From: Ruminococcus sp. HUN007 | GTDB taxonomy: Bacteria > Bacillota > Clostridia > Oscillospirales > Ruminococcaceae | DNA length: 64,000 nucleotides | Assembly (NCBI RefSeq): GCF_000712055.1 | Contig: NZ_JOOA01000002.1 | Span: 124,001-188,000, forward strand | Reading direction: 5' to 3' | Shown here: positions 34,261 through 55,977 of the stretch, piece by piece | Position numbering within the stretch: position 1 is the stretch's first letter | How the letters are laid out: each line of letters opens with the position of its first letter | Notes under the pieces: model-generated | Seen by the model: the letters and a program-made list of their open reading frames with translations, nothing else | Told to the model about the DNA's origin: nothing | Database searches by the model: none | Program-made: the position numbers and the translations under genes

Positions 34261-35619
34261 TTAAAAGCATTTATTCCTAACGATCGCTGCGAATTCTTCA
34301 GGCAGACCGTTTTCATTATTATAATAAGTATAAAGCGGATTTTCCTTAGCGGAAAACTCCTTAAAAAGATCAGTTGTTTTATAGAACTCAAAAAGATAAG
34401 GAAGTTTCTTCTTCTCGCTTTCCATATTGCTTATAGCCTTAACGATAGAAAAGTTTATCTCTTCACGGCTTCCGACGCACTCAAAAGGCTTTTCATCTGC
34501 CATACCGATAAGTCCTTTGAACATATCAAGCATATCCTCACGGTCTGTCATATCGTTTCCAAGGATATCACAGAGTTCCTCATGAGCGATAAACGGAGAA
34601 AGAATGAGGAAAACAAAAAGACACTTTGAGCAGTTACCGCACCATGAATCCGTTTTGCTTCCGGCATTGCAGCTTCTGAAAAGTTTATGGAACTTTTTAA
34701 GGCCGGCAAAATGCTTTGCGATCTGGAATTCACTGAGCGGTCTTAAAAGACTGAAGTAGTAAACACCGGATCCGATGTATTTCTTTTCATAATCAACAAA
34801 ATCCTTTTCAAACTGATAACTCTTGGAATACTGATGATTAACGTCAGAATCCTTCACCGTGCTCTCATTTGCACTCGCTTCGTTTGAAAGAACAACATAC
34901 TTTCTTCCGTTAATGAAGGCAGCGATAACTGCTGAAAATGCAACTATTGCTGAAAACGGAGTATGCCCGTTCAGAAAGCCTTCGGAATTGAGCCTTATCA
35001 TGTTCTGGTCAAGAGTTCTGCGTGACAGAATTATATCTTCATCGGAAAAACCGGCAGTATAGGCTTCCTTATAAATAGATTCCCTGCGGTTGATAAGATA
35101 GCAGGAACTGTTTCTTCGCATTTCACTTAAAAGATCAAGAGTAACAATGGAATCCTTGCCGCCGCCGACTGGTATAAGGCAGCCGCTCAGTGAACGGTCT
35201 TCTGAAGATCCTTTGACTTCACTTCCGGAAGATGTGATAGTCATAAACGACTCAAAATCAGCAGCTATACCGTTTCTGTAGAAAAACTCGCCGAGGCCGT
35301 TGAAATACTGGCGTTTCCACCATACTTTCTGTTCCTCGTCCAGAGATCCGCAGAGAACGGTAACGGAAGGGGAGCAGGTGATTTTCCAGTAGCTTACGAG
35401 CTCGACCATTCCAAGTGAGAAAACAAGCTTTCTCAGAACAGCGCTGTCTGTAATGTTTTTACCTGCAGGCTTTTTGATTTTCCACTCAGGTGAAAACTCC
35501 GAAAGACCCTTAATTTCGAAATTATACTTTATATATATTTCATCAGTGTTTTCGTCCAGTCCAAAGCTTTTGTAAATGAATTCAGGATATTCCGAACGAA
35601 ACTGTTCATATTTTGACAT
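34261..35619 (-). CDS. murL: MurL-like UDP-MurNAc-L-Ala-L-Glu epimerase
   Basis: The 452-residue product has a PP-loop-like motif CLIPVGGGKDSIVTLDLL at about 170 and a Cys cluster WCGNCSKCLFVFLIL at about 345, the layout I associate with MurL. MurL epimerises the terminal L-Glu of UDP-MurNAc-L-Ala-L-Glu to D-Glu with ATP. Length, motif and the position directly upstream of a murD gene support this. The start at 35619 is behind GAGGTG and overlaps hydE by 14 bases. If the assignment fails it remains a PP-loop ATP pyrophosphatase family protein. Confidence 0.75.
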   Translation of the reverse strand: MSKYEQFRSEYPEFIYKSFGLDENTDEIYIKYNFEIKGLSEFSPEWKIKKPAGKNITDSAVLRKLVFSLGMVELVSYWKITCSPSVTVLCGSLDEEQKVWWKRQYFNGLGEFFYRNGIAADFESFMTITSSGSEVKGSSEDRSLSGCLIPVGGGKDSIVTLDLLSEMRRNSSCYLINRRESIYKEAYTAGFSDEDIILSRRTLDQNMIRLNSEGFLNGHTPFSAIVAFSAVIAAFINGRKYVVLSNEASANESTVKDSDVNHQYSKSYQFEKDFVDYEKKYIGSGVYYFSLLRPLSEFQIAKHFAGLKKFHKLFRSCNAGSKTDSWCGNCSKCLFVFLILSPFIAHEELCDILGNDMTDREDMLDMFKGLIGMADEKPFECVGSREEINFSIVKAISNMESEKKKLPYLFEFYKTTDLFKEFSAKENPLYTYYNNENGLPEEFAAIVRNKCF

Positions 35620-36667
35620 CAGTTGCACCTCTGTTATAGTTTTTATGATCACCGCGTGAGAAAGACATTTCATACCCCGCAACCCTTATGCGGTTTTTCA
35701 GGCAGTTCAGGCATTCAGCAGCTTCTTCACCGGTACATATTTTATTTTCATAAAGGCTGTATTTTTTTCTTACACCGACAGGTGAAAGATTTGGCATTAC
35801 GACATTTGCTCCGGCTTTAAGAGCACGTTCACGTCCGTCACCGGACAGAGTTCCCATAGCAGTAGTAGCAGGGAGCAGGACTTCCGGAAACATAAGTCTC
35901 AGAACCGAAAGAAGTCTCAGCGTAACAGAAACACTGCCGTCCGGCCGGTCAGCAAACGGAGTCTGACTGTGATGAATAAATGGTCCGATACCGATCATTT
36001 CAGGTTTCAGTTCTTCAAGAAAACGTATATCGGAAACCAGTTCTCTTACTGTCTGAAAAGGAGAACCGACCATAAATCCCGCTCCGGTCTGAAAGCCCAG
36101 TTTTTTCAGATCAAACAGGCATTGTTTTCTGTGTGACAGATCCATTGAAGCCGGATGGAGCATCCGGTAATGTGCTTCGTCTGCAGTTTCGTGCCTTAAA
36201 AGATAACGGTCAGCACCAGCCTTTCGGTATGCAGCAAAGCTTTCATATGATTTTTCTCCAAGTGAAAGAGTAACAGCACATTCCGGGAATTCTGATTTGA
36301 TCCTGCTTACCAGTGAACAGATGATATCGTCGGAAAAAGCATCATCTTCACCGCCCTGAAGAACAAAGGTTCTGAAACCCAGTTCATAGCCGTTTCTGCA
36401 GCAGGAAAAGATCTCAGCGGATGTAAGCCTGTATCTTTCGGCATCTTTGTTACCGGCTCTGATACCACAGTAATAGCAGTTGTTTTTACAATAACTGCTT
36501 ATTTCTACAAGCCCTCTTATAAAGACTTCCTTTCCGTACACCTTCTGCCTGACAGCATCAGCTTTTTCAAAAAGCAGGCTGTCATTATATTCACCTGAAA
36601 TGATATACGCAAGTTCATCGTCACTTACAGGACTGCCTTTAAAAAGTTTATTAATTATTTCTGTCAT
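35606..36667 (-). CDS. hydE: [FeFe]-hydrogenase maturation radical SAM protein HydE
   Basis: HydE is a radical SAM enzyme that takes part in building the 2Fe subcluster of [FeFe]-hydrogenase. The 353-residue protein has the 4Fe-4S/SAM motif CKNNCYYCGIR at about 60, FVLQGGEDDAFSDD, LSLGEKSYESF and YLLRHETADEAHYRMLHP, which match HydE more than BioB. HydF and HydG are not adjacent. It heads the minus operon with the cell-wall genes and nadA. Confidence 0.9.
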   Translation of the reverse strand: MTEIINKLFKGSPVSDDELAYIISGEYNDSLLFEKADAVRQKVYGKEVFIRGLVEISSYCKNNCYYCGIRAGNKDAERYRLTSAEIFSCCRNGYELGFRTFVLQGGEDDAFSDDIICSLVSRIKSEFPECAVTLSLGEKSYESFAAYRKAGADRYLLRHETADEAHYRMLHPASMDLSHRKQCLFDLKKLGFQTGAGFMVGSPFQTVRELVSDIRFLEELKPEMIGIGPFIHHSQTPFADRPDGSVSVTLRLLSVLRLMFPEVLLPATTAMGTLSGDGRERALKAGANVVMPNLSPVGVRKKYSLYENKICTGEEAAECLNCLKNRIRVAGYEMSFSRGDHKNYNRGATDVKI

Positions 36668-36915: not shown

Positions 36916-36944
36916 TTGAAATCTCCCTTAATTTTTGATAAAAT
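36916..36944 (+). promoter_or_regulatory. Sigma-A promoter of the acyl-processing cluster
   Basis: TTGAAA (36916-36921) and TAAAAT (36939-36944) have a 17-base spacer and lie 39 bases before the first gene of the cluster. The AGGAGG ribosome site at 36969-36974 follows. Confidence 0.75.
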
Positions 36945-36983: not shown

Positions 36984-37928
36984 TTGGCAGGAGACACAGA
37001 AACAAAGAATGTTTTCCTTTTCCAGGGTATCGGATGCAATCTGGACAGACTTATTAAAGCATTAAGTGAAGAAGAATCAGAAATGCTGAATACAATCTGC
37101 GCTGAAGCTTCAGAATATGCAAAAACAGATTTGCTGAAATATCTTAATTACAGAAAAGAAGACACTGAAACAACCGATGTTTTTTCAGAATGGCTTGTGG
37201 CAAGCTTAACGGACGTTGCAGTTTTCAGGACTTACCAGAAAAAAGGAATCACACCTGACTACATTGTCGGATATAGTCTTGGTCTTAACAATGCCATGCA
37301 CTGTGCCGGATCAATATCGCTTGAAGCATGTGTTAATATACTGAAGAGCGGAATTGAATGCCGTGAAGAAGCAAGCAGAAACGGACAGTCAAAATATGAA
37401 ATGGCTGCAGTTATCGGCCTTGAGGAAGATGTTATAACAGACCTGATCAGGCGTTACTCTTCTGATGAAAAGGTGAAGATAGCAAGCATTAACACAGAAT
37501 TTATGATGGTTTTGTCAGGGGAGAAGGAAGAGATTCAGATAATACTTGACAAGGCGATGGAAGAAGGGGCGCTTAAAGCATTTCTGCTTGGTGTAGGGAT
37601 TCCTTTCCATACCAGCATGATGAAAGATTATTCATCATGCTATTTTAATGCAATAAACAATGTTCGATATGGCGACGCTGTATACCCGATAGTGTCTATT
37701 TATTCACAGAAAAAGCTGATCACAGCTGAAGAAATGCACATCGAAATGTCAAGAAATGTTCTTGAAGAAATGAAATGGAAAGGCACTATTGAATATCTTG
37801 AAAGTATTGGAGTCAGGGATTTCTATGATATGAGTGCTACAGAAGCCAACAGAAAGGCAAGCACTTTAGGAAATAAAGGATCCAGATTCATTACTATAAA
37901 AACTTTAAAAAAAAACGGAGGATTTTAA
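36984..37928 (+). CDS. Acyltransferase-fold (FabD-like) protein lacking malonyl-binding residues
   Basis: The 314-residue protein has the malonyl-CoA:ACP transacylase fold. Catalytic Ser98 lies in GYSLGLNNAM (FabD GHSLG) and His209 in IPFHTSMMK. In FabD, Gln11 (GQGSQ) and Arg117 bind the malonyl carboxylate; here the first motif reads FQGIGCN and the Arg position is Gly123 or Ser122. The enzyme may therefore use a different acyl group or hydrolyse acyl-ACP. The start is TTG 36984, 9 bases after AGGAGG. Its stop is followed two bases later by an ACP gene whose ribosome site (GGAGG) lies in its last codons. Confidence 0.75.
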   Translation: MAGDTETKNVFLFQGIGCNLDRLIKALSEEESEMLNTICAEASEYAKTDLLKYLNYRKEDTETTDVFSEWLVASLTDVAVFRTYQKKGITPDYIVGYSLGLNNAMHCAGSISLEACVNILKSGIECREEASRNGQSKYEMAAVIGLEEDVITDLIRRYSSDEKVKIASINTEFMMVLSGEKEEIQIILDKAMEEGALKAFLLGVGIPFHTSMMKDYSSCYFNAINNVRYGDAVYPIVSIYSQKKLITAEEMHIEMSRNVLEEMKWKGTIEYLESIGVRDFYDMSATEANRKASTLGNKGSRFITIKTLKKNGGF

Positions 37929-37929
37929 A

Positions 37930-38232
37930 ATGAAAGAAATTACACCAGAAATCAGAAAAGAAATCGAAGACATGATTTTTGACTACTACGCTGAAGAATG
38001 CGAGATTGACAGAAGCGAGATCTCAATGGACGCAGACCCGCAGGAAGACCTCGGCGGAGATTCACTCATGTTCGTTGAACTTATAGAAATGGCATCTGAC
38101 AAGTACGATATTGACGTAAAGCTTCAGAGTGTCGGCAAATACATGCTCAAGGCTCCTCTCAAGTCAATGAAGGACGTTGTTGATGTATTCTGCAAGATCT
38201 ATCAGTACGGTAACGATATCGTTAATTTATAA
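37930..38232 (+). CDS. Acyl carrier protein (cluster ACP 1)
   Basis: The 100-residue protein carries a phosphopantetheine attachment serine, S45 in DLGGDSLMFVEL, and the four-helix ACP pattern. It is longer than a standard 76-80-residue ACP at both ends. It would carry the growing acyl chain for the acyltransferase-like and ketosynthase proteins of this cluster. It is distinct from the second ACP at 46470. Confidence 0.9.
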   Translation: MKEITPEIRKEIEDMIFDYYAEECEIDRSEISMDADPQEDLGGDSLMFVELIEMASDKYDIDVKLQSVGKYMLKAPLKSMKDVVDVFCKIYQYGNDIVNL

Positions 38233-38234
38233 TC

Positions 38235-38960
38235 ATGCCGGAAATAAGCTCAAACATCTCAGTTCTTGAGATAAAGGATGATAAAGCAATCCTCACACTG
38301 AATAACGGACCAAAGAATCTTCTCAGTATTCCGGAGTTTTTCAGTCTGGATCTTCTGAAGAAAACTATTGATTCCAATCCGCAGCTGAAAGCACTTATCA
38401 TCACCGGAGCAGGAAGGCATTTTTCACATGGTGCTGACACTTCAAAGTTCTCTCCCGAAGGACTTTCAGAGATTCCTGAAAATCTGAGAAAATCAAGAGA
38501 ACTTCTCAACTATATCGAGGCACTTCCGCTTGTAACTGCTGCCGCCGTAAACGGCGGCTGTTTCGGCGGAGGAATGGAAGTGGCCATGAGCTGTCAGTTC
38601 CGTGTATGCAGCAAAAACGCTGTATTTGCTTTACCTGAAACCTCAATAGGAGTTATACCTGGAATGAGCGGTGTGGAACGTCTGGCAAGACTTGTCGGAA
38701 AAAGCAAGGCCATCTCTATGGTACTTGGCGGAAACATGATTTCAGCTTCAGAAGCTGCTGATCTTGGTATTGCAGATCTTGTAACTGAAGAAAAGAATTG
38801 TCTTGATAAAGCAGTTGAATTTGTAACAGAACTTACTGCTGACAGAACTGTACTTCAGATAAGATCAGTTGTTTCCAGAGTAAACAAGGCTCTCGCATCT
38901 CCTGAAACAGACGTATCTGATGACAGTTTTGAAAAAATACTAGAGGAAAAGCTTAAATAA
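38235..38960 (+). CDS. Enoyl-CoA hydratase/isomerase family protein 1
   Basis: The 241-residue crotonase has the oxyanion-hole segment GAGRHFSHGADTS and both catalytic Glu residues: one in FGGGMEVAMS and one in FALPETSIGVIPG (Glu144 and Glu164 of the rat enzyme). It should therefore be able to add or remove water from a 2-enoyl thioester. In this cluster it could act as dehydratase on an acyl-ACP or acyl-CoA chain. It follows the ACP gene after two bases. Confidence 0.88.
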   Translation: MPEISSNISVLEIKDDKAILTLNNGPKNLLSIPEFFSLDLLKKTIDSNPQLKALIITGAGRHFSHGADTSKFSPEGLSEIPENLRKSRELLNYIEALPLVTAAAVNGGCFGGGMEVAMSCQFRVCSKNAVFALPETSIGVIPGMSGVERLARLVGKSKAISMVLGGNMISASEAADLGIADLVTEEKNCLDKAVEFVTELTADRTVLQIRSVVSRVNKALASPETDVSDDSFEKILEEKLK

Positions 38961-38964
38961 CAAA

Positions 38965-39363
38965 ATGGATAAAAGTATATTTAGATTAACTGTACGCGGC
39001 TATGAGCTTGATTCATTCGGTCACGTTAATAATGCTGTTTATCTTCAGTACGCTGAAGAAGCTAAATGGCATTTTTTTTCGGAAACGAAACTTCTCGGTC
39101 TAATGAACGAAAGGGGACTGTTCCCGGTAATTCTTGAAAACAAATTAAGATACATGCATGAACTTAAAATGCATGATGAAGTGAGGATCGAAACTTCATG
39201 GTCCACAAAAGGAAAGACCCTTCACTTTACGCAGACTATTTTCAATGAAACTGAAAATGTTAAATCATGTGTAGTAAAAGGCACGGTTGCTTTTGTTGAC
39301 CACGAAAGAATCATGCATGATATACCTGAAGAATTATTTAAACTGGAGATACTACAAAAGTGA
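38965..39363 (+). CDS. Hotdog-fold (4HBT) acyl-CoA/acyl-ACP thioesterase
   Basis: The 132-residue protein begins with the YbgC-type active-site pattern ELDSFGHVNNAVYLQYAE, in which the Asp is catalytic. It should release acyl chains from CoA or ACP. A run of eight T (39072-39079) inside the gene remains in frame. It overlaps the next gene by four bases (GTGA). Confidence 0.85.
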   Translation: MDKSIFRLTVRGYELDSFGHVNNAVYLQYAEEAKWHFFSETKLLGLMNERGLFPVILENKLRYMHELKMHDEVRIETSWSTKGKTLHFTQTIFNETENVKSCVVKGTVAFVDHERIMHDIPEELFKLEILQK

Positions 39364-39932
39364 ACATAACAAAAAAGAATAATTACCTGCACATCACAGA
39401 CATTGATTCTCTTGCAGATGCGGTGTCTGTATGCTGTAAAGAATATGACAATGATTTTTTTGCTGCAGTATTTGAAGGCATAAAAGAGCCTTTAACTCCT
39501 GAAGAAAAGAAATTACTGGCAGATGTGCCTTTTATCACAGCTGTTTACTCAGACAGTTTAACCATGCCGGCTGAAGACCTTCTCTGTTTCGACCTTCGTT
39601 TTTCAGCTGATACATTTAAAACAGACAGGGAAACTGCAAAAAAGCTTTCTGAAGAAAAGAAGTTTTCTGTACTTTTCAGTGACAAAAGAGCTTATGCTCT
39701 CAAAGAATTCGCAGAAAATTCAGATGCAGATGAAACTGAACTTGAATATTTTTCTGTTACAGCCGAAAACTTCGATGATTACTTCAAAAGAATATATAAA
39801 GATAAAACTCCTTTCCAGATCAAAATCCTCACAGAATGTCTTGTATCTCTGAGAACAGGCGATGCTGAAACAGGTTTTGCAAAAGAATCAGAAAACTTTT
39901 ACAAGCTGGCAAGAGTAATTACAAAGGAATGA
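39360..39932 (+). CDS. Unrecognised cluster protein, possible degenerate crotonase
   Basis: I do not recognise this 190-residue acidic protein. Its last 35 residues (ILTECLVSLRTGDAETGFA, then KESENFYKLARV) resemble the C-terminal helices of enoyl-CoA hydratases, and FITAVYSDSLTMPAEDLLCF could match the region before the oxyanion hole, but both catalytic Glu residues and the Gly-rich motif are missing. It starts with GTG, overlaps the hotdog gene and lies between two full crotonases. A non-catalytic partner or decayed duplicate is possible. Confidence 0.6.
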   Translation: MNITKKNNYLHITDIDSLADAVSVCCKEYDNDFFAAVFEGIKEPLTPEEKKLLADVPFITAVYSDSLTMPAEDLLCFDLRFSADTFKTDRETAKKLSEEKKFSVLFSDKRAYALKEFAENSDADETELEYFSVTAENFDDYFKRIYKDKTPFQIKILTECLVSLRTGDAETGFAKESENFYKLARVITKE

Positions 39933-39933
39933 T

Positions 39934-40644
39934 ATGATGAGTGAATCAGCTTTTTTCACTTTGGAAAACAAAGATAATATACTGGACCTGACAATGAATG
40001 CTCCGGGCAACAATATCATGACTGCAGATTTCATGACCGGATTTGAGGATATTGTTAAGGAAGTTCAGAAAACTGCCGCAGAAAACAACAGTATAAAGGG
40101 ACTTATAATCCATGGTGCAGGCAGACATTTCAGTGTAGGCGCTGATGTTACATCGCTTCTTGAAAGAACCGGTGATGAACTTTCCGAATACGAAAAGACC
40201 GGTAAAATTCCTGAAGGACATGTTATTCAGAAAGGTTCAGTACTTTCGTTTAACAGTTTAAAGTTTCCTGTTGTCAGTGTAGTGAATGGTTTCTGCATTG
40301 GTTCAGGCAGCGAGATTGCAGCAAGCGCACATTTCAGAATATGTGAACCTGCAACAAGAGCCGGTCAGCCGGAATCTACTTTCGGTATTCTTCCTGCTCT
40401 GGGCGGTATCACAAGATCCGCTGCAATATGCGGACTTTCACAGGCAATAGACATTGTAATGTCAGGAGAGCTTTTTACAGCTGAACACGCCGGAAAGATC
40501 GGCTGGGCAGATATATTATGCGAAAAGAAACAGGGCTACGGCAAAGCGGTGGCTCTTATAGAATATATTAACGGTACCGGATCATTTGATCCTGCCAGAA
40601 GCGCTGAATACATAAGCGGATTTCTTAAAAGCGAGGAAAAATAA
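39934..40644 (+). CDS. Enoyl-CoA hydratase/isomerase family protein 2
   Basis: The 236-residue crotonase has HGAGRHFSVGADVTSLL for the oxyanion hole, and Glu in GSGSEIAAS and in GQPESTFGILPALGG, so the catalytic pair is complete. It differs enough from the cluster's first crotonase to suggest another substrate or chain length. A ribosome site AAGGA precedes the double ATG start. The stop overlaps the start of the dehydrogenase by one base. Confidence 0.88.
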   Translation: MMSESAFFTLENKDNILDLTMNAPGNNIMTADFMTGFEDIVKEVQKTAAENNSIKGLIIHGAGRHFSVGADVTSLLERTGDELSEYEKTGKIPEGHVIQKGSVLSFNSLKFPVVSVVNGFCIGSGSEIAASAHFRICEPATRAGQPESTFGILPALGGITRSAAICGLSQAIDIVMSGELFTAEHAGKIGWADILCEKKQGYGKAVALIEYINGTGSFDPARSAEYISGFLKSEEK

Positions 40645-41769
40645 TGAACTCACTTAAAAAAATCGGTATTCTTGGATACGGAAAGATGGGAAAAGAGATC
40701 TTCGATCTTTTCCACAGCAAACTGCCTGATTCTGAATTCGTTGTATTGCTCAGACACGATATAAGCGAAGAAACGGAAAAGGTAGAAAAAAATCTTTCGA
40801 AATCACTCAGAAGGAAAAAGATAACTGAAGAAGTATTTGAAAAGATGAGCAGAAACTTTCTTTTCACTGATGATTTAAGCAGCTTCTCTGACTGCACACT
40901 TATTATAGAAACAGTAGCAGAGAACCTTGACATTAAGAAACAGCTTTTTGCTGAACTTGATAAAAAGGTAAATGATCAGTGTGTATTTGCCACAAACACT
41001 TCTTCTCTTACTGTAAGCGAAATATTTTCGTTATGCAGCAGCGAAAGAAAAAACAATGGGCATGCATTTCTTCTATCCGCTTAAGCTTACCGGATTCATT
41101 GAAATGAACGAATGTAAAGATGCTGAAACTGCTGAGAAGACAGCTGAAGTTACAGGAAAATCTCTTGTTAATTTTTCAAAGAGCTATTGTTTTTATCTCA
41201 ATCAGTACATTTTCTTCTGTACAGCTCATGCATTTCTGCTGTCAGAAAAATACGGCACAGGTATTCTTAAGGCAATGGATATATTAAATGACCTGTTCCC
41301 GATGCACAGCCTTTTTGGTATGGCCGATTCGATCGGACTCGGGCTCATGACATCAGGTACAACTGAAACTTCTGTCAGAAGAATCAAACCTCTGCTTGAC
41401 TCAGGAAGAGCCAAAATCAGTTCTTATCTTTCAGCCGGCTGTTCTCCTGAAACGGGAAAGTTTATTGAATTTATAACCGGTCAGGAAAAGGGCAGGGAAG
41501 AAAAGGACATTGACTCAGACAGCTTTAAGCTTGATATGATATCAGCAATGCTGAATGAAGCGGTAATCGCAGCTTCTGAAAATGAAGGAAACATTACAGA
41601 AGCACTTTATGATGCCGTTGGACTTTCTGAAAAATTCAGCTTCTATTATAAAAATTTCGGTTACGATAAGATCGCCGGAAGTCTTGAATCGCTGAAATCT
41701 TTCAGTGGTATGGAGCTTTATCAGTGCGCTGACAAAAGCTTATACGAAAAGTATTTATTAACAGAATAA
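40644..41769 (+). CDS. 3-hydroxyacyl-CoA dehydrogenase (apparent frameshift)
   Basis: The NAD-binding domain starts GILGYGKMGKEIF, with TLIIETVAENLDIK and FATNTSSLTVSEI, typical for HBD/PaaH-type enzymes. The second half begins MGMHFFYPLKLTGFIEM, with the catalytic His, and contains the helical C-terminal domain. The enzyme interconverts 3-hydroxyacyl and 3-oxoacyl thioesters with NAD(H). The frame breaks in A6 at 41048-41053; dropping one A gives 374 residues and the family's exact order. In a cluster without a ketoreductase it may supply that step. Confidence 0.85.
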
Positions 41770-41908
41770 ACTGTTATCCGAAAGCATGGGGTACGGAGCT
41801 TGTGATTCATTCTTTCCGTAAAACTTCGTAAACAGCAGTGATTATGATAAGGGATAAGGCTTGTAGGTATGTAAAATATTAATTTATAAGCAAAGCGAGG
41901 CAATTAAA

Positions 41909-43048
41909 ATGAAAAAATGGCCACTTAGAAATTTACTTAATCCTGTAGTTACCCGTTCACTTCTTTACGGAACCGATTCATTCGATATGGAATATGTTCT
42001 TCAGAAGATCGACCAGATCAAGACAATGAGCGGTAAAGAAGTAAAAAGAGTCTGGTTCGGCGAATGGGAAAGAAAAGCAGCACGTTATATCGAATGTGCT
42101 GAAAAAGCTGAAAAAGCCGGAAACAAGATTTCTGCTGAAGCTTTTTACATGATGACAGCTCAGTGCTATTATGCCGGTTATCAGATAAACACAGATGATA
42201 TCGAGCAGAAACGTGAAGTTTATGAAAAACTTGCTAAGTACTACAAAAAGGCTGTAAGCTACCGTGAAAACAAGGTTGAATACATCGAAATACCTGTTCC
42301 TGCACTTGGCGATGTAAAACTCTGCGGTTATATTCATTATCCAAACAAGGGCAGAAGCAAAAAGTATCCTATCGCAATTACATATTCAGGTGTAGGAAGC
42401 TGCAAGGAAGAACTTGATCTTCTTGCACGTCCTCTTATCGAAAGAGGCATTGCTGTACTTACTGTTGATATGCCGGGTACAGGCGCTACTCTGTTTGATT
42501 ATGACGGAAAATGTATCGGAAGCCAGCTCGAAGCTGCAATTGATGCGATCGGTGAATACGTTGAAAACCGTGACAACATAGATAAAGACAGAATCGCAAA
42601 CTTCGGTCTCTGCATGGGCGGCGGTTACTCATTCCGCGCTTCTGCAAAAAGAAAAGCTGTTAAGTGCTGCGTAAGCCTTTTCCCTCTTTTCATGAATATT
42701 GCCGATACAGATTCTATTCCGATCTGGATGAAGCACGGTAAGTGGGCAATGTTACAGTACGGCACAGGCGATGACGCTAAATTCATGACTGAAATGAAGC
42801 TTCTGGAACAGGGAACTATCGACTGTGATTTCCTGCTTGTATACAGCCCTGATGATAACTGGATGAACAGCAGCGCTTCACTTTCAATGCTCGACAGAGC
42901 AACCGGATACAAGGAAAGCCTTGAGGTCAATGAAAAGCCTGCATATGTATCTGAAGAAACTATCATGCACGCAATGCCGGTCGGTGAACAGTTCCACTGG
43001 GTAAAACACATTGCTGCTGACTTTATTGCTGACAGACTTAAAAAGTAA
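41909..43048 (+). CDS. FrsA/DUF1100-like alpha/beta hydrolase with Cys nucleophile
   Basis: The 379-residue protein has an N-terminal helical part (about 1-125) and an alpha/beta hydrolase core. The nucleophile elbow reads FGLCMGGG, with Cys235 instead of the usual Ser. The acid is likely D315 or D316 in YSPDDNW and the base H363 or H367 in QFHWVKH. A Cys at this site occurs in dienelactone hydrolase and in some thioesterase-type cyclases. In this cluster it may release or cyclise the chain. An RBS-like GCGAGG stands before the ATG; the 139-base gap after the dehydrogenase may hold a promoter of its own. Confidence 0.8.
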   Translation: MKKWPLRNLLNPVVTRSLLYGTDSFDMEYVLQKIDQIKTMSGKEVKRVWFGEWERKAARYIECAEKAEKAGNKISAEAFYMMTAQCYYAGYQINTDDIEQKREVYEKLAKYYKKAVSYRENKVEYIEIPVPALGDVKLCGYIHYPNKGRSKKYPIAITYSGVGSCKEELDLLARPLIERGIAVLTVDMPGTGATLFDYDGKCIGSQLEAAIDAIGEYVENRDNIDKDRIANFGLCMGGGYSFRASAKRKAVKCCVSLFPLFMNIADTDSIPIWMKHGKWAMLQYGTGDDAKFMTEMKLLEQGTIDCDFLLVYSPDDNWMNSSASLSMLDRATGYKESLEVNEKPAYVSEETIMHAMPVGEQFHWVKHIAADFIADRLKK

Positions 43049-43079
43049 ACGGATACTTGGTGTTTGCATCTGTCCCCAT

Positions 43080-43121
43080 ACGCTGATTTAAATACAAATC
43101 AGCGTTTCCTTATGTTTTTTT
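43080..43121 (+). terminator. Hairpin and T tract after the hydrolase gene
   Basis: ACGCTGATTT (43080-43089) and AAATCAGCGT (43096-43105) form a perfect 10-bp stem; a run of seven T ends at 43121 after TTCCTTATG. The stem resembles the left palindrome of the ~115-bp repeat. It separates the first eight genes of the cluster from the ketosynthase part. Confidence 0.55.
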
Positions 43122-43164
43122 ACTTTTTAAAGCAGCGTTAATAACAGCTAAATAATGTAGGTAT

Positions 43165-43196
43165 TTGTATGGGTAATTTATCATTAGTAATATAAT
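43165..43196 (+). promoter_or_regulatory. Probable promoter of the ketosynthase part of the cluster
   Basis: TTGTAT at 43165-43170 is followed after 17 bases by TAATAT (43188-43193), with an overlapping TATAAT at 43191-43196. The ketosynthase start follows 25 bases later, behind GGGAGG. Confidence 0.55.
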
Positions 43197-43221
43197 TGAT
43201 TTATTAAAGGGAGGAACAACA

Positions 43222-44427
43222 ATGGAGAAAGTTGTAATTACAGGTATGGGCGCTATCTGCTCATTAGGAAATGACGTAGAAGAACTCTGGAATAATCTTA
43301 TAGAAGGTAAAAGCGGAATTGGTAAAATAGAACGTATATCAACTGAAAACCATGATTCTACTGTTGCTGCTGAAATAAAGAGCGACGCTTTTGAAACAGT
43401 ATGCAAAAAATACTGGACTAAGAGACAGCTCAACACTGTTACTGGCCCGGTACGTCTTGTAATGGCTACTGCCGCACAGGCAATAGAGGACTGCGGAATT
43501 GATCTTGAAAATTATGACAAAGACAGGGTAGCTGTAATATACGGTATTGCAGACAGTGGTTATGAAGACGACGAACGCTTAAAGACGACAAATATAGTTC
43601 TCAAAACAATGCCAAGTTCCGGACCGTCTCTTATATCTGAGAAATTTGGTTTTCACGGCGTAAGTTTTAACCTTTCATGCGCATGCGCAAGCTCAGGATA
43701 TGCAATTGCGCTCGGAGCACAGCTTATTGAAACAGGTGTTTATGACATGGTAGTTGCAGGCGGACTTTCAAACTACGTTACACATGACAGAGTCAAGGGA
43801 TTTAACCAGATACTTGCAATGTCTGCTAATCCGGATCCTGAAACAGCATGCCGTCCGTTTACAAAGAACCGTGACGGTTTTATCCTCGGTGAAGGTGCAG
43901 GTACTGTTATACTTGAATCTGAAACATCTGCAAAGAAGAGAAATGCAAGAATCCATGCAAAGCTTTCAGGTTATGCATGCTACAGTGAATCTTCGAATAT
44001 GACTGCGCCTCTTGAAAACGGTGCCGGTATGAAGATAGTTATGGAAAGAGCTATTGAAAAGGCTGGTCTCACACCTGACAGGATCGACTACATAAACGCT
44101 CACGGTACTTCTACAAACCTCAACGACAAGTATGAGACTATGGCTATCAAAAATCTCTTCGGCAAGCATGCCTATGAGCTTTCAGTATCATCAACAAAAT
44201 CAGCTATCGGTCATACACTTGGTGCGGGCAGTGTTATAGAGGGTATCGTTACAATAAAAGCACTTAACGAAAACCTCGTTCCGCCAACAATTCACTATGA
44301 TGAACCAGATCCGGATCTTGATCTTGACTACACTCCTAACAAGGCTAAGAAGAGAGAGATCAATGTTGCATTATCCAATTCATATGGTTTTGGCGGACAG
44401 AATGTAACTCTTATTTTTGAAAAATAA
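43222..44427 (+). CDS. Stand-alone beta-ketoacyl synthase (FabF-like)
   Basis: The 401-residue ketosynthase has a complete Cys-His-His triad: Cys155 in LSCACASSGYA, His294 in NAHGTSTNLND and His331 in SAIGHTLGAGS. It should catalyse decarboxylative condensation on an acyl-ACP. The active-site sequence CACASS and the lack of fabD/fabG/fabZ neighbours suggest a special pathway instead of primary fatty acid synthesis. GGGAGG precedes the start by 11 bases. The next gene begins 17 bases after the stop. Confidence 0.93.
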   Translation: MEKVVITGMGAICSLGNDVEELWNNLIEGKSGIGKIERISTENHDSTVAAEIKSDAFETVCKKYWTKRQLNTVTGPVRLVMATAAQAIEDCGIDLENYDKDRVAVIYGIADSGYEDDERLKTTNIVLKTMPSSGPSLISEKFGFHGVSFNLSCACASSGYAIALGAQLIETGVYDMVVAGGLSNYVTHDRVKGFNQILAMSANPDPETACRPFTKNRDGFILGEGAGTVILESETSAKKRNARIHAKLSGYACYSESSNMTAPLENGAGMKIVMERAIEKAGLTPDRIDYINAHGTSTNLNDKYETMAIKNLFGKHAYELSVSSTKSAIGHTLGAGSVIEGIVTIKALNENLVPPTIHYDEPDPDLDLDYTPNKAKKREINVALSNSYGFGGQNVTLIFEK

Positions 44428-44443
44428 TAACGGAGATATTAAA

Positions 44444-44797
44444 ATGCCAATTTGTCAGATCAAAACAAATTACAAGTTTACACCGGAAGAAAAAACTGAG
44501 TTTTTAAAATGCGTGGCTTCTGAACTCTCAGTAATACTTGACAAGCCTCTGCCGGCTGTAATGACAATGCTGTCTGAAGAATACATGTTTATGAACAATT
44601 CTGATGACACTGTGGTTTTTGCAGAGTTCAGATATTTAAAAGATTTTGCTTCTCCTGAAGAAAAAAGCGCATTCTTAAAGGATTTCGCTGACAGGGCTCT
44701 TGCTCTGTTCAGAAAATTTACTTCAGTTGATCCTTACAGGGTCTACATGCAGTTTACAGAAATGACACGCGAAGGCGCATGGAGATACACAGAATAA
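44444..44797 (+). CDS. MIF/tautomerase-like protein inside the biosynthetic cluster
   Basis: The 117-residue product begins MPICQIKTNYKFTPEEK, with Pro right after Met as in MIF and 4-oxalocrotonate tautomerase relatives. Length and helix-strand order match MIF, and the C-terminus reads VYMQFTEMTREGAW. The start at 44444 is selected because of GGAG 8 bases upstream and the Pro at position 2. A tautomerase or isomerase acting on a beta-keto intermediate is plausible. It lies between the ketosynthase and the AMP ligase, 17 bases from each. Confidence 0.8.
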   Translation: MPICQIKTNYKFTPEEKTEFLKCVASELSVILDKPLPAVMTMLSEEYMFMNNSDDTVVFAEFRYLKDFASPEEKSAFLKDFADRALALFRKFTSVDPYRVYMQFTEMTREGAWRYTE

Positions 44798-44814
44798 TAA
44801 GGAAGGCATATTAA

Positions 44815-46377
44815 ATGAAAGACAATTTTTTCAGCAAATACAAAGAGTATGCAGCAAAGACACCTGACAAGGTTCTTCTTCGTATCGATGACAGCGAACT
44901 CACTTACAGTGACTTTCTTGAAAGAACTGCTGTAATGAGTTCAGGAATGAGAAAACTCGGCATCGGAAAAGATGATAAGGTAGGTATTATAATGCCTAAC
45001 AGTATCGACTGGTACATTGTATTCTGGTCAGCTGTAAGAATCGGAGCACAGCCTGTTCCGATTGATCCTCAGAGCGGTGTGCTGGAACTTTCCAGACTCA
45101 TTCCTGCAACCGGAATAAAGATCTGCTTTGCTGCGGAAAAATACAAGACAAACAATATCAGAGAAGCTGTTAAAAAAGTAGAACCTGATAAACTTACTGT
45201 TGATCATGTAGTATTTTTCGGTGAAAGTTCAGCATCTGAAGAAACGGACAAATTCATCTCATCATCAGTATTCTTTGATAAATATACAGATGATTATTCT
45301 GAGATCTATGTTCCTGAAGATGATCACGTAATGAATCTTGCCTGCACATCAGGAAGCACAGGTACACCTAAGATGCTTTCTATACCTTACTACGGTTTCT
45401 ATCAGGCTGCTGTGGATATGGGTAACTATCTTGGCTTCAGTGAAAATGAAGTTATGATGCTCGGAATGACTCTTTATCATCAGGGCGGATTCGGCATGGG
45501 TCTCCAGACAACAGTTAACGGCGGTACAGTTATGTATCAGCCTCAGTTCAACCCTGTTACATTCCTTGAAACAGTTCAGAAGTACAGAGTTACTGTTATC
45601 CAGCTCACATCAACACTTGCAAAGGTGCTACTTTCAACTCCGGACTTTGACAAATATGATCTTTCAAGTGTAAAGGCCTGCTATTTCGCAGGAGAAGTTC
45701 TCCCTAAGGAGATCGCTGACACATTCGTTGAAAAGCTCGGTATCAGAGTAATCAATGTAATCGGATCATCTGAAACAGCAACAATGGTTGTCTGGGATTC
45801 AGACAAGGACAGAGGAACTGATCCAAGCGATTTCAGAAAGCTTCCTTTTACCGACTTTATAGTTGCTGACGCAAAGGGAAATAATATTGAAGCTGAAGAT
45901 GAAGTCGGCGAACTCGTTATTTATACAACAGCAGTTATTCCTGACTATTACGGTAATCCGGAACTTTCTGCTGAAAAAATCAAGACTGATTCTGAAGGAA
46001 GACGCTGGTTCTTCACCGGTGACCTTGTAAAGCGCATCCCGGACGGAAAAGTAAGATTTGCCGGAAGAAGCAAGAGAATCATCAAGCGCGGTGGTAATCT
46101 TGTACACGCTGAAGAAGTTGAAGCTTGTCTTCTTACACATGAAAACATTGAAGCTGCAGCTGTTACTGACGATCTTCACCCGGTAATCGGTCAGCAGATT
46201 ATTGCTTATATTCAGACCGTTAATAACCAGAAAATAACAAGAGGGGAGATAGCTAAGTTCTTCGAGGGCAAGCTTTCTGCCTATAAAGTTCCTGATAAAG
46301 TAATCGTTGTTGACGAGATTCCTAAGGATGTCGGCAAGGTACAGTTCAAGTATCTCAGAGAACAGAATAAAAAGTAA
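44815..46377 (+). CDS. Class I adenylate-forming ligase (acyl- or aryl-AMP ligase)
   Basis: The 520-residue enzyme has the full ANL fold: ACTSGSTGTPKML as the phosphate loop at about 180, INVIGSSETATMVVWD at about 307, FTGDLVKRIPDGK, the hinge RSKRIIKRGGNLVHAEEVE, and the late Lys in PKDVGKVQFKYL. It should activate a carboxylic acid and load it onto CoA or the ACP encoded next. That would provide the starter unit. The substrate cannot be read from sequence alone. AAGGAAGG stands upstream of the ATG. Confidence 0.9.
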   Translation: MKDNFFSKYKEYAAKTPDKVLLRIDDSELTYSDFLERTAVMSSGMRKLGIGKDDKVGIIMPNSIDWYIVFWSAVRIGAQPVPIDPQSGVLELSRLIPATGIKICFAAEKYKTNNIREAVKKVEPDKLTVDHVVFFGESSASEETDKFISSSVFFDKYTDDYSEIYVPEDDHVMNLACTSGSTGTPKMLSIPYYGFYQAAVDMGNYLGFSENEVMMLGMTLYHQGGFGMGLQTTVNGGTVMYQPQFNPVTFLETVQKYRVTVIQLTSTLAKVLLSTPDFDKYDLSSVKACYFAGEVLPKEIADTFVEKLGIRVINVIGSSETATMVVWDSDKDRGTDPSDFRKLPFTDFIVADAKGNNIEAEDEVGELVIYTTAVIPDYYGNPELSAEKIKTDSEGRRWFFTGDLVKRIPDGKVRFAGRSKRIIKRGGNLVHAEEVEACLLTHENIEAAAVTDDLHPVIGQQIIAYIQTVNNQKITRGEIAKFFEGKLSAYKVPDKVIVVDEIPKDVGKVQFKYLREQNKK

Positions 46378-46387
46378 TACATGAAGG

Positions 46388-46422
46388 ATAACCCGTAGCA
46401 GACCGGATCTTCTGCGGGTTAT
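46388..46422 (+). terminator. Hairpin between AMP ligase and second ACP
   Basis: ATAACCCG and CGGGTTAT, extended inside by AGCAGA/TTCTGC pairing, form a strong stem 11 bases after the ligase stop. No T tract follows, so it is more likely an mRNA processing or partial-termination signal that sets ACP level. Confidence 0.45.
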
Positions 46423-46469
46423 CAGTACTTTCATTATAAATTATAACTGAATTTAAGGAGTAAACTATT

Positions 46470-46718
46470 ATGAATAACATTTCATGGGATGAATTCACTA
46501 AAGAAGTATCTGACTACGTTGGTGTAGACGCCTCAGAGATCACAAAAGACACTGATATCTATGAAGACCTTTGCCTTGATTCACTTGGCGTATTTGGTCT
46601 CGGCACACAGCTTACAGAGACATTCGGTCTTACAGTTGCACTTTCTTCAGTAGCTGTAGTAAGTAAAATTGGTGACATGTACGATATTCTGAACGAAAAA
46701 GGCGTAAAAAATGCATAA
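46470..46718 (+). CDS. Acyl carrier protein (cluster ACP 2)
   Basis: The 82-residue protein has the phosphopantetheine serine S38 in DLCLDSLGVFGL and a standard ACP length. Having two different ACPs in one cluster suggests separate loading and extension carriers, or two partner specificities. AAGGAG lies 8 bases before the start. The end overlaps the thioesterase start by eight bases. Confidence 0.9.
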   Translation: MNNISWDEFTKEVSDYVGVDASEITKDTDIYEDLCLDSLGVFGLGTQLTETFGLTVALSSVAVVSKIGDMYDILNEKGVKNA

Positions 46719-47431
46719 TGAAATAAAGCTGTGTTTTTTTGCACATGCCGGCAGTTCAGCAAGAAGCTATTCAAGCTTCAAAAAATTTCTTGACCCATCT
46801 ATCAAACCGGTACCGATCGAGTTAGCAGGACGTGGAAGCAGACTTTCAGAACCAAGATTCACAGATGCGGAAAAATGCGCAGGAGATGTATTTCTTAAAA
46901 ATAAAGAGATATTTGAAGAAGGAAACTATGCATTTTTCGGACACAGCCTTGGCTCGATCATATCTTATGAAACGATTAAGATAATAAAAAAATGCGGACT
47001 TCCTGCTCCTTTCCATGCATTTTTTTTCCAGTAGGCCGGCACCTCAGTCAAGAATAGAAAGTGCTGTATCAGGTTCATCAACACTTCCTGATGACGAGTT
47101 TATCCGAATCTTTTCATCATACGGTGGACTTCCTTCGTCTCTTACTGAAAACAAGGAAATGCTTAATATGCTGCTTCCGATACTCAGAGATGACGTTACA
47201 ATGGCAGACAACTACCATCCGACATTCAGTGAACCGGAAATTGATACAGACATTACAGTCTGTTACGGCCGTGGTGACAGCATCTATTCAGGAGAAAACC
47301 TTGAACTGTGGCAGAAATGCACGACCGGCAGTTTCAGCAGTATTGCATTTGACGGTGATCATTTTTATTTCAATATTCCTGATAATAAAGAAAAACTCTG
47401 CGAGTATATAAACAGAACTTTACTTGGATGA
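46711..47431 (+). CDS. Type II thioesterase (apparent frameshift)
   Basis: The protein belongs to the GrsT/TEII group that clears wrongly loaded acyl groups from carrier proteins. It has FFAHAGSSARSY, ELAGRGSR, the nucleophile Ser79 in FFGHSLGSIIS, an Asp-containing CYGRGDSIY and the His in FDGDHFYF. The frame breaks in T8 at 47020-47027; dropping one T joins HAFF to SSRPAPQ, the place of the usual SGRRAP motif, and gives 239 residues, the family's normal length. TEII proteins typically accompany NRPS or PKS systems. Confidence 0.85.
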
Positions 47432-49097: not shown

Positions 49098-49134
49098 TGC
49101 GTTCATAAAAATGATATTCGGCAGGTGCAATATA

Positions 49135-50673
49135 ATGAAAGAGTTAAAAACATACAGAGGACACATCAGAAACTGGAAAGAACTGTGTGCAGTTCTTGGG
49201 ATAGACACTTCCCTTTCACGTGAAAAAAGAGAAGAAGAGATCATACTCAAAGGCTGTGAAAAATGGGGAGAAAATATTGCTGACCACTTATACGGAATGT
49301 TTGCCTTTGCTGTCTGGGACACAGATGAAAAGAAACTTTTCTGCGTAAGAGACCATTTCGGCACAAAGCCTTTCTACTACTACGAAACAAAGGACGGCGA
49401 ACTTCTTTACGGTACATTCATCCGTGATATAACAGAGAAAAAGGAATTTGTAAAGGAAATAAACAGGGACATGCTCCAGATCTACATGACGCTTACTTAC
49501 GTTGCCGGCGAAGACACGTTCTTCAAGGGGCTTAAGAAGCTCATGCCGGGATGCCATCTTACATGGCAGAACGGAAAGATCAGTATCGTCCGTTACTGGA
49601 AGCCTGAGTTTAAGCCTGACAATTCAAAGAGCCTTGAAGACTGGGCAGATGAGATCCACACAACAGTAAAACAGATGATCGATGAAGTAAAAACACCTGA
49701 TGAAACTGCTGAATCATTCCTTTCAGGCGGCGTGGATTCATCTTATGTATTTGCTGTATCCGATGCAGAAATGTCAGATTCATGCGGATATGACGACGAA
49801 AGATTCGATGAGTCATTCCTTGCAAAGAAGACAGCAGATATGCTCGGCAGAAAGAATTCAAGATGCCTTATTACTCCTGAGCAGTACTTTGAAGCTGTTC
49901 CGTACGTAATGTACAACATGGAACAGCCGCTCGGCGATGCTTCGGCAATCGTTTTTGCCATTGCCTGCAAAGCTACTGCTGAACATACAAAACTCTGCTA
50001 CTCCGGTGAAGGAGCTGACGAATTCTTCGGCGGCTACAACATGTACAGAAACGCTGAACGCTACGGCGAGAACCTTAAGACTTTCTACGTAGGCAATACA
50101 AATATCATGAAGGAAGAGGAAAAGCAGAAGATCTTAAAGCATTACGATCCTTCAGTCCTTCCAATCAATCTTGTTAAGCACATCTACGAAGAAACAGAAG
50201 GACTTGATCCGCTTTCAAAAATGTCAGACGTAGATATTCAGATCTGGCTTGAAGGCGATATCTACTTAAACGTTGACAAGATGAGCACATGCTGCGGTCT
50301 TGAAATAAGAATGCCTCTTACAGACAGAAGGGTATTCGACATCGCTTCCCGCCTCCCTTCAAAGTTTAAGGTAAATGAAGAACAGAACAAGGTCGCATTC
50401 AGAACAGCTGCAGCCAAGGTTCTTCCTGATGAAATAGCTTTCAGAAAGAAGCTCGGTTTTATCGTTCCGATCAGAATATGGCTTGCAGATGACAGATACA
50501 ACAGCGACGTAAGAGCAAAGTTCAACAGCGACTACGCAGCTGAATTCTTCAACACTGACGAGATCAACGCTATCTTCGAGGATTACAAAAACGGTAATTC
50601 AGACAACTGGAGAAAGGTATGGACTATCTATACATTCCTCGTATGGTATGAAGAATACTTCATCAAAAGATAA
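49135..50673 (+). CDS. Asparagine-synthase-like amidotransferase without the glutaminase Cys
   Basis: The 512-residue product carries an incomplete N-terminal glutaminase part and a full synthetase domain. The usual MCGI start with catalytic Cys and about 60 residues are missing; the protein begins where AsnB has the YNY-type strand and continues LYGMFAFAVWDTDEKKL and CVRDHFGTKPFYYYE. The synthetase has the PP-loop SFLSGGVDSSYV and YSGEGADEFFGGYN. It may use free ammonia or a separate glutaminase. It stands next to ddh; AsnB relatives amidate meso-DAP of peptidoglycan in lactobacilli and Bacillus, which is a possible role. Upstream DNA does not contain the missing piece in any frame. AGGTG precedes ATG 49135. 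Confidence 0.82.
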   Translation: MKELKTYRGHIRNWKELCAVLGIDTSLSREKREEEIILKGCEKWGENIADHLYGMFAFAVWDTDEKKLFCVRDHFGTKPFYYYETKDGELLYGTFIRDITEKKEFVKEINRDMLQIYMTLTYVAGEDTFFKGLKKLMPGCHLTWQNGKISIVRYWKPEFKPDNSKSLEDWADEIHTTVKQMIDEVKTPDETAESFLSGGVDSSYVFAVSDAEMSDSCGYDDERFDESFLAKKTADMLGRKNSRCLITPEQYFEAVPYVMYNMEQPLGDASAIVFAIACKATAEHTKLCYSGEGADEFFGGYNMYRNAERYGENLKTFYVGNTNIMKEEEKQKILKHYDPSVLPINLVKHIYEETEGLDPLSKMSDVDIQIWLEGDIYLNVDKMSTCCGLEIRMPLTDRRVFDIASRLPSKFKVNEEQNKVAFRTAAAKVLPDEIAFRKKLGFIVPIRIWLADDRYNSDVRAKFNSDYAAEFFNTDEINAIFEDYKNGNSDNWRKVWTIYTFLVWYEEYFIKR

Positions 50674-54800: not shown

Positions 54801-55977
54801 AAACGACATTGAAAAGTTACAGGAAACAGCGGTAAAAGCTGCTGAAAAACTCGGCAAAGTTGAAGGTATCGGTGAAGTTGATGACGGAATCGATAATCCT
54901 TCACCTGAGCTCAAAATCACAGTAAACAAGGAAAAAGCTATGCTCAACGGTCTGACAGTAGCACAGGTATTCGGTGACATAGCAAAATCACTCTCAGATT
55001 CATCAAAAGCAACAACGATCACAACAAACGGCAAGGATTTCGATATAATCGTTGAAAAAGGCGAAGAAGGCAGCATTACCAAAGACAATATAAAGGATTA
55101 CAAATTCAAGATAGTCGATATGGCAGCTGCCGGTAATACAGATGAAGCAATCGCATTTGACATGAAGGAAGAAAAGGAAGAGGATGAAGACGAAGAAAAG
55201 GAAGAGGAACCGAAAAAAGAAGAGGTTGCTCTTCATGAAATAGCTGAAATCGAAGAGACCACTACCCTTTCTGCTATTTCAAGACGTGATCATAAGAGAT
55301 ATATCACAGTAAGCGGAACTATTGCAGACGGATACAACGTAGGACTTGTAAGCCGTGACGCAGAAAGCCAGTTCGAAAACTTCGAGCTTCCTGAAGGATT
55401 CACTCTCGAATTTGACGGTGAAAACGAAACTATCATGGAGTCAATGAAACAGCTGGGACTCATGCTTGCACTCGCTGTTGTTCTTATCTATCTTATCATG
55501 GTAGCTCAGTTCCAGTCTCTTAAATCACCTTTTATCGTCATGTTTACAATGCCTCTTGCGTTTACCGGAGGTTTCCTTGCTCTTATCATTACCGGAAAGG
55601 AACTCAGCGTAATCGGACTTTTAGGCTTTGTAATGCTTTCAGGTATCGTCGTAAACAACGGTATCGTGCTTGTAGACTACATAAACCAGCTTCGTCTTGA
55701 AGGTATGGAAAAACGTGAAGCTATTGCTGAAGCAGGCGCTACACGACTAAGACCTATTCTCATGACAGCAATAACAACGATTCTCGGTCTTATTATGATG
55801 GCCGTCGGAAAGGAAATGGGTTCTGACATGGTTCAGCCTATTGCAGTCGTTACTATAGGCGGTCTTGTATATGCCACATTTACAACGCTCTTCATCATCC
55901 CGATAATCTATGACATGTTCAATAAAAAGGAAATGAAGAAGATAGACAGCTCTGAACTTGAGTTTATAGACGATTAA
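51824..55977 (+). CDS. RND superfamily (AcrB/HAE1-like) efflux transporter with coiled-coil insertion (two apparent frameshifts)
   Basis: The repaired product has 1383 residues, larger than the usual 1020-1050. It begins with a membrane helix and PDLLPSINLPYAIVMTTYVG, TRPVEQSMSTINNIK, as in AcrB. After the porter part a long coiled coil (about 190-500) rich in Lys, Glu, Asp and Leu is inserted. Then come six-helix membrane blocks with GLAIGVGMLVDNSVVVIENI and later GIVVNNGIVLVDYINQLR. No membrane-fusion or outer-membrane protein is nearby, as expected in a Gram-positive. Breaks are A7 at 52677-52683 and A7 at 53127-53133; dropping one A at each restores the coiled coil. The start is TTG behind GGAAGGTG. 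Confidence 0.85.

Follow-up and report, generated by a model that had tools for sequence, protein, structure and literature searches.

A conserved cluster of thirteen separate acyl-processing proteins in Ruminococcus, a candidate source of the yellow pigment of Ruminococcus flavefaciens

Described systems and the Ruminococcus cluster

The aryl polyene (APE) cluster of Escherichia coli CFT073 encodes a stand-alone AMP ligase, two acyl carrier proteins (ACPs), two ketosynthases (KSs) plus a chain length factor (CLF), a FabG-type ketoreductase, its own dehydratase, a thioesterase, an MMPL exporter and LolA, and it has no annotated enoyl reductase. In the polyene subgroup of the highly reducing type II polyketide synthases (PKSs), a dissociated iterative KS, a reductase and a dehydratase produce polyenes, and a KS-CLF heterodimer is used (PMC10698177). 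The celluxanthene/flavoaffinin (cex/faf) clusters of Acetivibrio thermocellus and its relatives, which are anaerobic cellulose degraders with a yellow pigment, bring together an AMP ligase (CexD), a free-standing ACP (CexB) and an alpha/beta-hydrolase (CexE); Ishida et al. (2025; PMC12144888) describe a type I iterative PKS (CexF), two KASIII enzymes and a hydrolase gene whose position differs between groups. Lastly, FadB-type systems contain fusions of a crotonase and a 3-hydroxyacyl dehydrogenase (HAD). Here, a cluster of thirteen genes at positions 36984-47431 of a 64,000-nucleotide stretch from Ruminococcus sp. HUN007 (contig NZ_JOOA01000002.1; "the window" in the following) was compared with these systems. 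It is a real conserved biosynthetic cluster and not a chance grouping. The interpretation that we moderately favor is a dissociated iterative PKS with reduction and dehydration of the beta-oxidation type and without an enoyl reductase, which would produce a polyene-like chain, in R. flavefaciens possibly a yellow pigment.

The Ruminococcus cluster resembles the APE cluster in the kinds of its parts (AMP ligase, two ACPs, KS and thioesterase) and also lacks an annotated enoyl reductase. It differs in having one KS and no CLF, and a HAD and crotonases for reduction and dehydration. BLAST comparisons of the window and two further loci (L035, L096) with the E. coli locus yielded 28-32% identity for the KS and weak matches for ACP and hotdog proteins, while no match was obtained at E 0.01 for the AMP ligase, the reductase and the dehydratase. 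The poor fit to APE clusters, which had been noted in an earlier sequence-only reading of the window, was thus borne out, and the same is true for clusters for beta-branching, because Pfam scans revealed no HMG-CoA synthase-like enzyme among the thirteen proteins.

The layout is also similar to that of the polyene subgroup of the highly reducing type II PKSs (PMC10698177), with the difference that a single KS is present instead of KS-CLF, and HAD and crotonase instead of ketoreductase and dehydratase. With the cex/faf systems the cluster shares, in kind, the combination of AMP ligase, free-standing ACP and alpha/beta-hydrolase, and its hydrolase gene is likewise found in two positions (see below); in addition, the yellow pigment of the cex/faf hosts is a likeness to R. 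flavefaciens. However, Pfam and NCBIfam scans found neither a multidomain PKS nor a KASIII among the thirteen proteins, which are separate parts with a FabF-type KS and the HAD/crotonase enzymes.

The FadB-type architecture is echoed in two genomes, in which crotonase B is fused to the HAD (L020, on the same contig as L038, and L023) and the catalytic residues are kept. A further fusion, of the 190-aa protein described below as pseudo-crotonase with crotonase B, occurs in three loci (L083, L090 and L097). The fusions indicate that the reducing and dehydrating steps are tied together. As the AMP ligase, the crotonases and the HAD belong to beta-oxidation families, the genes could also form a catabolic operon for the activation and beta-oxidation of a plant-derived acid. 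This is very improbable, as Pfam scans of the thirteen proteins detected neither a thiolase nor an acyl-CoA dehydrogenase, and as the cluster contains two carrier proteins, a type II thioesterase (TEII) and a condensing KS with intact Cys-His-His. The ACPs, the KS and the lack of a thiolase and an acyl-CoA dehydrogenase also set it apart from FadB-type systems, and in the iterative PKS proposed here the direction is presumed to be reductive.

Conservation and extent of the cluster

One query profile of the FrsA-like hydrolase of the cluster was used to search public named genomes, and 67 loci were obtained; the locus finder requires exact peptides, and strains without the gene would not be listed. 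None of the 67 loci held fewer than four of the thirteen genes, showing that the grouping goes beyond chance. Using BLAST alone, all thirteen genes were found in 39 loci and twelve in another 13, and the remainder were mostly cut by contig ends. When the analysis was confined to the 46 loci that have 1.5 kb or more of sequence beyond each end of the cluster, 42/46 contained all thirteen genes; for this count, an open reading frame (ORF) longer than 110 aa at the expected position was accepted as pseudo-crotonase where BLAST had missed it. By this test three of the 46 untruncated loci lacked the pseudo-crotonase, and one (L091) lacked the hotdog gene. In L091 no hotdog match was present between crotonase A and the pseudo-crotonase, and the hotdog gene may thus be dispensable. 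Two loci without interior genes, L056 and L086, are two contigs of one metagenome-assembled genome. The sequence-only reading had named scattered homologues in relatives as evidence against a cluster; instead, the gene order is kept in other genomes. Variation was seen for the hydrolase gene: in 47 full clusters, including that of the window, it lies between the MIF-like tautomerase and the AMP ligase genes in 44, and between the HAD and KS genes in three, among them the window.

The carriers include nine isolates named R. flavefaciens (FD-1, 007c, ATCC 19208, ND2009, MA2007, YAD2003, Y1, SAb67 and YL228) and two isolates named "R. albus" (AR67 and KH2T6). R. albus 7 and 8 are missing from the 67 loci, which is no proof of absence given the exact-peptide finder. 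In samples of graded relatedness, the FrsA-like profile matched 10/11 genomes of the same genus, and the cluster was present in all ten, in one of them (G004) only partially on a short contig. Two of these genomes (G002 and G006) have all thirteen genes at 25-62% identity, and the pseudo-crotonase alone was matched in 8/11 genomes of the genus, including this one, and in 0/50 others. At the family level the hydrolase was found in 13/396 genomes from 5/126 genera, each time within the cluster (again partial in G004). In a class sample of 391 genomes it was found in this genome only, apart from one weak partial match, and a MIF-type profile matched only this genome in an order sample of 295.

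The thirteen genes lie on the plus strand throughout and encode separate proteins, including the AMP ligase, two ACPs, a KS with intact active site and reducing and dehydrating enzymes, in agreement with the sequence-only reading (Table 1). The tight order claimed there holds within sub-blocks. The intergenic gaps are, in order, 1, 2, 4, -4, 1, -1, 139, 173, 16, 17, 92 and -8 bases, and thus gaps of more than 17 bases flank the hydrolase gene (139 and 173) and precede ACP2 (92); furthermore, a terminator-like hairpin is present at 43080-43105. Likewise, the promoter that had been called clear has good-looking -35 and -10 motifs at 36916-36944, but a promoter scan of the region yielded 34 sites compared with a mean of 37.8 (standard deviation 6.6) in shuffled sequences, and thus no excess.

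Table 1. Genes and gene pieces of the cluster, with positions in the window
Feature	Position	Strand	Evidence
FabD-fold acyltransferase (AT), TTG start	36984..37928	+	TIGR00128 1.8e-33 (under cut-off); PDB profile match to malonyl transacylases 3.8e-30
Acyl carrier protein 1 (ACP1)	37930..38232	+	PF00550 2e-7; DSL motif 59/59
Crotonase A	38235..38960	+	PF00378 3.2e-38; both catalytic Glu 59/59
Hotdog thioesterase (4HBT_2)	38965..39363	+	PF13279 8.9e-22
Pseudo-crotonase, 190 aa ("unknown" in the sequence-only reading)	39360..39932	+	Pfam/NCBIfam: none; predicted crotonase fold
Crotonase B	39934..40644	+	PF00378 1.1e-22; both catalytic Glu 57/57
3-hydroxyacyl dehydrogenase (HAD), N-terminal piece	40644..41084	+	PF02737 3.6e-26
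3-hydroxyacyl dehydrogenase (HAD), C-terminal piece	41056..41769	+	aligns with C-terminal part of intact orthologues
Two-domain alpha/beta hydrolase, AntI/FrsA type, Cys nucleophile	41909..43048	+	Pfam/NCBIfam FrsA-like
FabF-type ketosynthase (KS)	43222..44427	+	PF00109 3.1e-48; Cys-His-His-Lys 62/62
MIF-like tautomerase, N-terminal Pro	44444..44797	+	PDB MIF/L-dopachrome isomerases 4e-8
Stand-alone AMP ligase	44815..46377	+	PF00501 4.5e-60
Acyl carrier protein 2 (ACP2)	46470..46718	+	PF00550 3.6e-7; DSL motif 61/61
Type II thioesterase (TEII), N-terminal piece	46711..47034	+	PF00975 9.1e-13
Type II thioesterase (TEII), C-terminal piece	47015..47431	+	PF00975 1.6e-13

A larger cluster was considered and rejected. 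The flanks of 68 loci were compared, of which 54 had more than 2 kb upstream and 54 more than 2 kb downstream, and no flanking family occurred in more than 25/68. Flanking genes are thus not shared, and the unit comprises these thirteen genes. At the window, a radical SAM protein that overlaps a 473-aa protein without confident family is encoded upstream (34261-36667, minus strand), an arrangement found directly upstream in 4/68 loci, and an asparagine-synthase-like protein downstream (49111-50673) is kept in 3/68 loci, including the window. Downstream of the cluster, 20-23/68 loci (L057, L060, L088 and others) encode members of two ABC-2 type permease families and an ABC ATPase, in most cases on the opposite strand; these are a possible exporter and are absent at the window. 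A second, dissimilar AMP ligase directly follows the TEII in L044 (8353-9840), L045 (4173-5657), L133 (6278-7855) and L134 (14541-16118) and is a lineage-specific extra. Elsewhere in the genome of the window, long ORFs with carrier domains and of the size of nonribosomal peptide synthetases (NRPSs) or PKSs are present (G000:C1 10240-26489; G000:C2 198497, about 10 kb beyond the window end).

In this assembly, a frame break divides each of the HAD and TEII genes into two pieces (Table 1), while the intact copies of relatives encode about 373 and 241 aa, respectively. They are unsplit in every other locus in which they were seen, so that the cluster of this genome could be a decaying copy with real frame-breaking mutations in a strain without the product. 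The ratios of nonsynonymous to synonymous substitutions (dN/dS) do not favor this view: against L034 and L035, the values for the broken halves (0.05-0.19) fall inside those for the intact genes (0.00-0.22), albeit as a rough estimate, because dS was high (0.6-2.3). Both breaks adjoin single-base runs, as judged by inspection of the sequence, which fits an assembly error. Moreover, an AcrB/RND-type transporter gene at 51824-55977 is distributed over three overlapping frames (51824-52696, 52590-53183 and 53095-55977) and is thus the third frame-broken gene of the window, which points to assembly indels. Decay in this genome is therefore rather unlikely, and the breaks are probably assembly errors.

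Enzyme identities and active sites

Pfam and NCBIfam models agreed with the gene identities given in the sequence-only reading in most cases; no model matched the "unknown" and the MIF-like gene. The latter was recognized by its own profile against solved MIF structures, and its start at 44444 yields Met-Pro, which is present in 65/65 orthologues. Another MIF-family tautomerase is encoded outside of the cluster at 22502-22843 (PF01187, 3e-13).

Active-site residues were counted in orthologue alignments from which short, edge-cut or fused rows had been excluded by length filters. The Cys-His-His-Lys of the KS, the Glu pairs of both crotonases and the Ser in the DSL motifs of both ACPs were invariant (counts in Table 1), and so were the Ser, His, Glu and Asn of the HAD in 58/58 intact orthologues and the Ser of the TEII in 60/60. 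At the HAD position that follows the second strand and bears on the choice between NADH and NADPH, the residues vary (R, L, I, T and others among 58 rows) in an uncertain part of the alignment, and no cofactor preference emerged. The structural neighbors of the AMP ligase in the PDB include ligases of aryl and acyl acids, luciferases and A domains of NRPSs.

The AT has Ser98 and His209 in 58/58 orthologues each, aligned with Ser92 and His201 of E. coli FabD. In contrast, the column of FabD Gln11, the oxyanion Gln, contains Ile in 55/58, Val in two and a gap in one. At the column of FabD Arg117, the malonyl-binding residue, Arg was found in 0/58; the next column has Arg in 46/58, so close that a single gap would align it with Arg117, and the AT of the window and its nearest relatives have Arg in neither column. 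Judged by the alignment, the AT appears to keep only the Ser-His pair of the catalytic residues tested, and the presence of a malonyl-binding Arg is doubtful.

The KS is of the FabF type. It scored 396.7 bits with NF005589 (cut-off 387) and 410.6 bits with TIGR03150 (fabF), which is below the cut-off of 493.75. In a phylogenetic tree the cluster KSs were placed beside FabF-like KSs and far from type I KSs, and this was counted in favor of a dissociated PKS; one APE KS with a long branch was unplaced among the FabF-like and cluster KSs. The NF005589 score would also suit a variant fatty-acid pathway for an unusual membrane lipid or a branched or aryl fatty acid, with no pigment or antibiotic as product, and because the cluster has no dedicated enoyl reductase, that of the housekeeping pathway could be shared. 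This alternative is improbable: the distribution in the family is patchy (see above), unlike that of a core lipid pathway, two dedicated ACPs are present, and neither AntI-like lyases nor MIF-like tautomerases are known to us to take part in fatty-acid synthesis.

Two identifications are new here, and both rest on predicted folds. First, the hydrolase is predicted to share its full two-domain fold with AntI-type polyketide lyases and FrsA, with Cys in place of Ser. The Cys235, Asp316, His354 and His363 residues are invariant in 65/65 orthologues. The enzyme resembles AntI and Ayg1-type polyketide-trimming lyases, the DHPON hydrolase and FrsA. In AntI the nucleophile is Ser245 (PMC11165489), and the Ser in the GXSXG motif by which AntI-type lyases are defined is replaced by Cys in all orthologues of the cluster enzyme. 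According to the same source, the substrates of AntI are chains that a type II PKS carries on its ACP, and the likeness in predicted fold was therefore counted in favor of a PKS.

Second, the 190-aa "unknown" protein is predicted to have a shrunken crotonase fold. Profiles of seven rows gave no convincing match, and a 49-row profile matched crotonase A (P 8.7e-6) and gave no match to crotonase B. Only D78, E176, S177, F180 and Y181 were invariant in 40 rows. It was the predicted fold that settled the assignment as pseudo-crotonase. The statement of the sequence-only reading that the enzymes have no recognized counterpart consequently holds for sequence families only: at the level of predicted folds this protein is crotonase-like, and the hydrolase has counterparts in AntI, the DHPON hydrolase and FrsA.

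The Cys enzyme and the tautomerase might alternatively perform ring chemistry on a short chain. In that case one to three extensions, with the reducing enzymes acting once, would lead to a short cyclised acyl metabolite, e.g., a small aromatic compound, a pyrone or a tetronate. We consider this unlikely, as Pfam scans of the thirteen proteins detected neither a cyclase nor an aromatase family, and as the pair of HAD and crotonase, fused in two genomes, and the two ACPs better suit repeated processing by an iterative PKS.

Proposed pathway and the yellow pigment

The iterative PKS is proposed on the basis of gene content, co-conservation, active-site residues, fusions, predicted folds and the result of Pfam and NCBIfam scans, which found no enoyl reductase family among the thirteen proteins. 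The starter would be a carboxylic acid, which the AMP ligase would activate and load onto ACP2, with the TEII as an editor that clears mis-loaded ACP2. The FabD-like transferase may deliver either malonyl or the starter as an acyl group to ACP1 or to the KS, and the FabF-type KS would extend the chain on ACP1. The HAD could then reduce the 3-keto group, and crotonase B could catalyze the dehydration with the pseudo-crotonase as a structural partner, i.e., beta-oxidation enzymes would run backwards. As no enoyl reductase is among the thirteen proteins, the chain would stay unsaturated, and repeated rounds would yield a conjugated (poly)enoyl chain, with crotonase A possibly setting or moving its double bonds. 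The last steps, in which the product is trimmed, cyclised or released, might fall to the AntI-like Cys enzyme, the MIF-like tautomerase and the hotdog thioesterase.

R. flavefaciens has an important part in fibre degradation in the rumen and gut, and a yellow pigment serves as a diagnostic trait of the species. The pigment is described as characteristic for the species, especially on cellulose, in two papers (PMC9653558, PMC8865330). According to Ishida et al. (2025; PMC12144888), R. flavefaciens DSM 25089 is without a cex cluster and without celluxanthenes. A literature search, with subscription papers mostly outside its reach, revealed neither a gene for the yellow pigment of R. flavefaciens nor a description of the cluster. 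ATCC 19208, which we take to be the same strain as DSM 25089, has all thirteen genes (L096).

In 7/12 carrier genomes (007c, MA2007, YAD2003, Y1, YL228, AR67 and KH2T6) just two PF00109 ketosynthases were found, a FabF-like one and the KS of the cluster; the counts, which exclude KASIII enzymes, were 3 in ATCC 19208 and in the genome of the window, 6 in ND2009, 7 in FD-1 and 21 in SAb67. A carotenoid was considered as an alternative pigment and rejected, as a phytoene/squalene synthase (PF00494) was found in 0/12 carrier genomes, while the control was positive in 7/14. Because the cluster has the only KS besides the FabF-like one in seven genomes and a phytoene/squalene synthase is missing from all twelve, it is a leading candidate for the yellow pigment of R. 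flavefaciens.

The link to the pigment is circumstantial. Cohesins were found in 13/13 carriers and in 126/383 non-carriers among the 396 family genomes (Fisher p 8e-7, uncorrected for relatedness), but many genomes with cohesins are without the cluster. The genome of the window also has cohesin matches, and a glycosyl hydrolase family 53 (GH53) protein with a type I dockerin is encoded at 16-1929. Several further points limit the link: in one genus (g20), apparently that of ND2009, the hydrolase was seen in only 2/7 sampled genomes, R. albus isolates were also called yellow in one paper, and a literature search for the colors of individual strains found none. It is therefore only tentatively suggested, and may well prove wrong, that the cluster makes the yellow pigment of R. 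flavefaciens, as a polyene that would be produced by a dissociated synthase with HAD and crotonase (pseudo-crotonase as partner) and finished by a Cys version of an AntI-type lyase.

The matching pigment of A. thermocellus was solved in 2025 (PMC12144888). If the proposal is true, the cluster would be a second, independent route to a yellow pigment associated with cellulose, next to that of the celluxanthene producers, and it would extend the iterative PKSs by a design with crotonase-fold enzymes and a HAD in the roles that normally fall to a ketoreductase and a dehydratase. Taken together, a conserved cluster with the sole KS besides the FabF-like one in several strains makes the question of the pigment directly testable.

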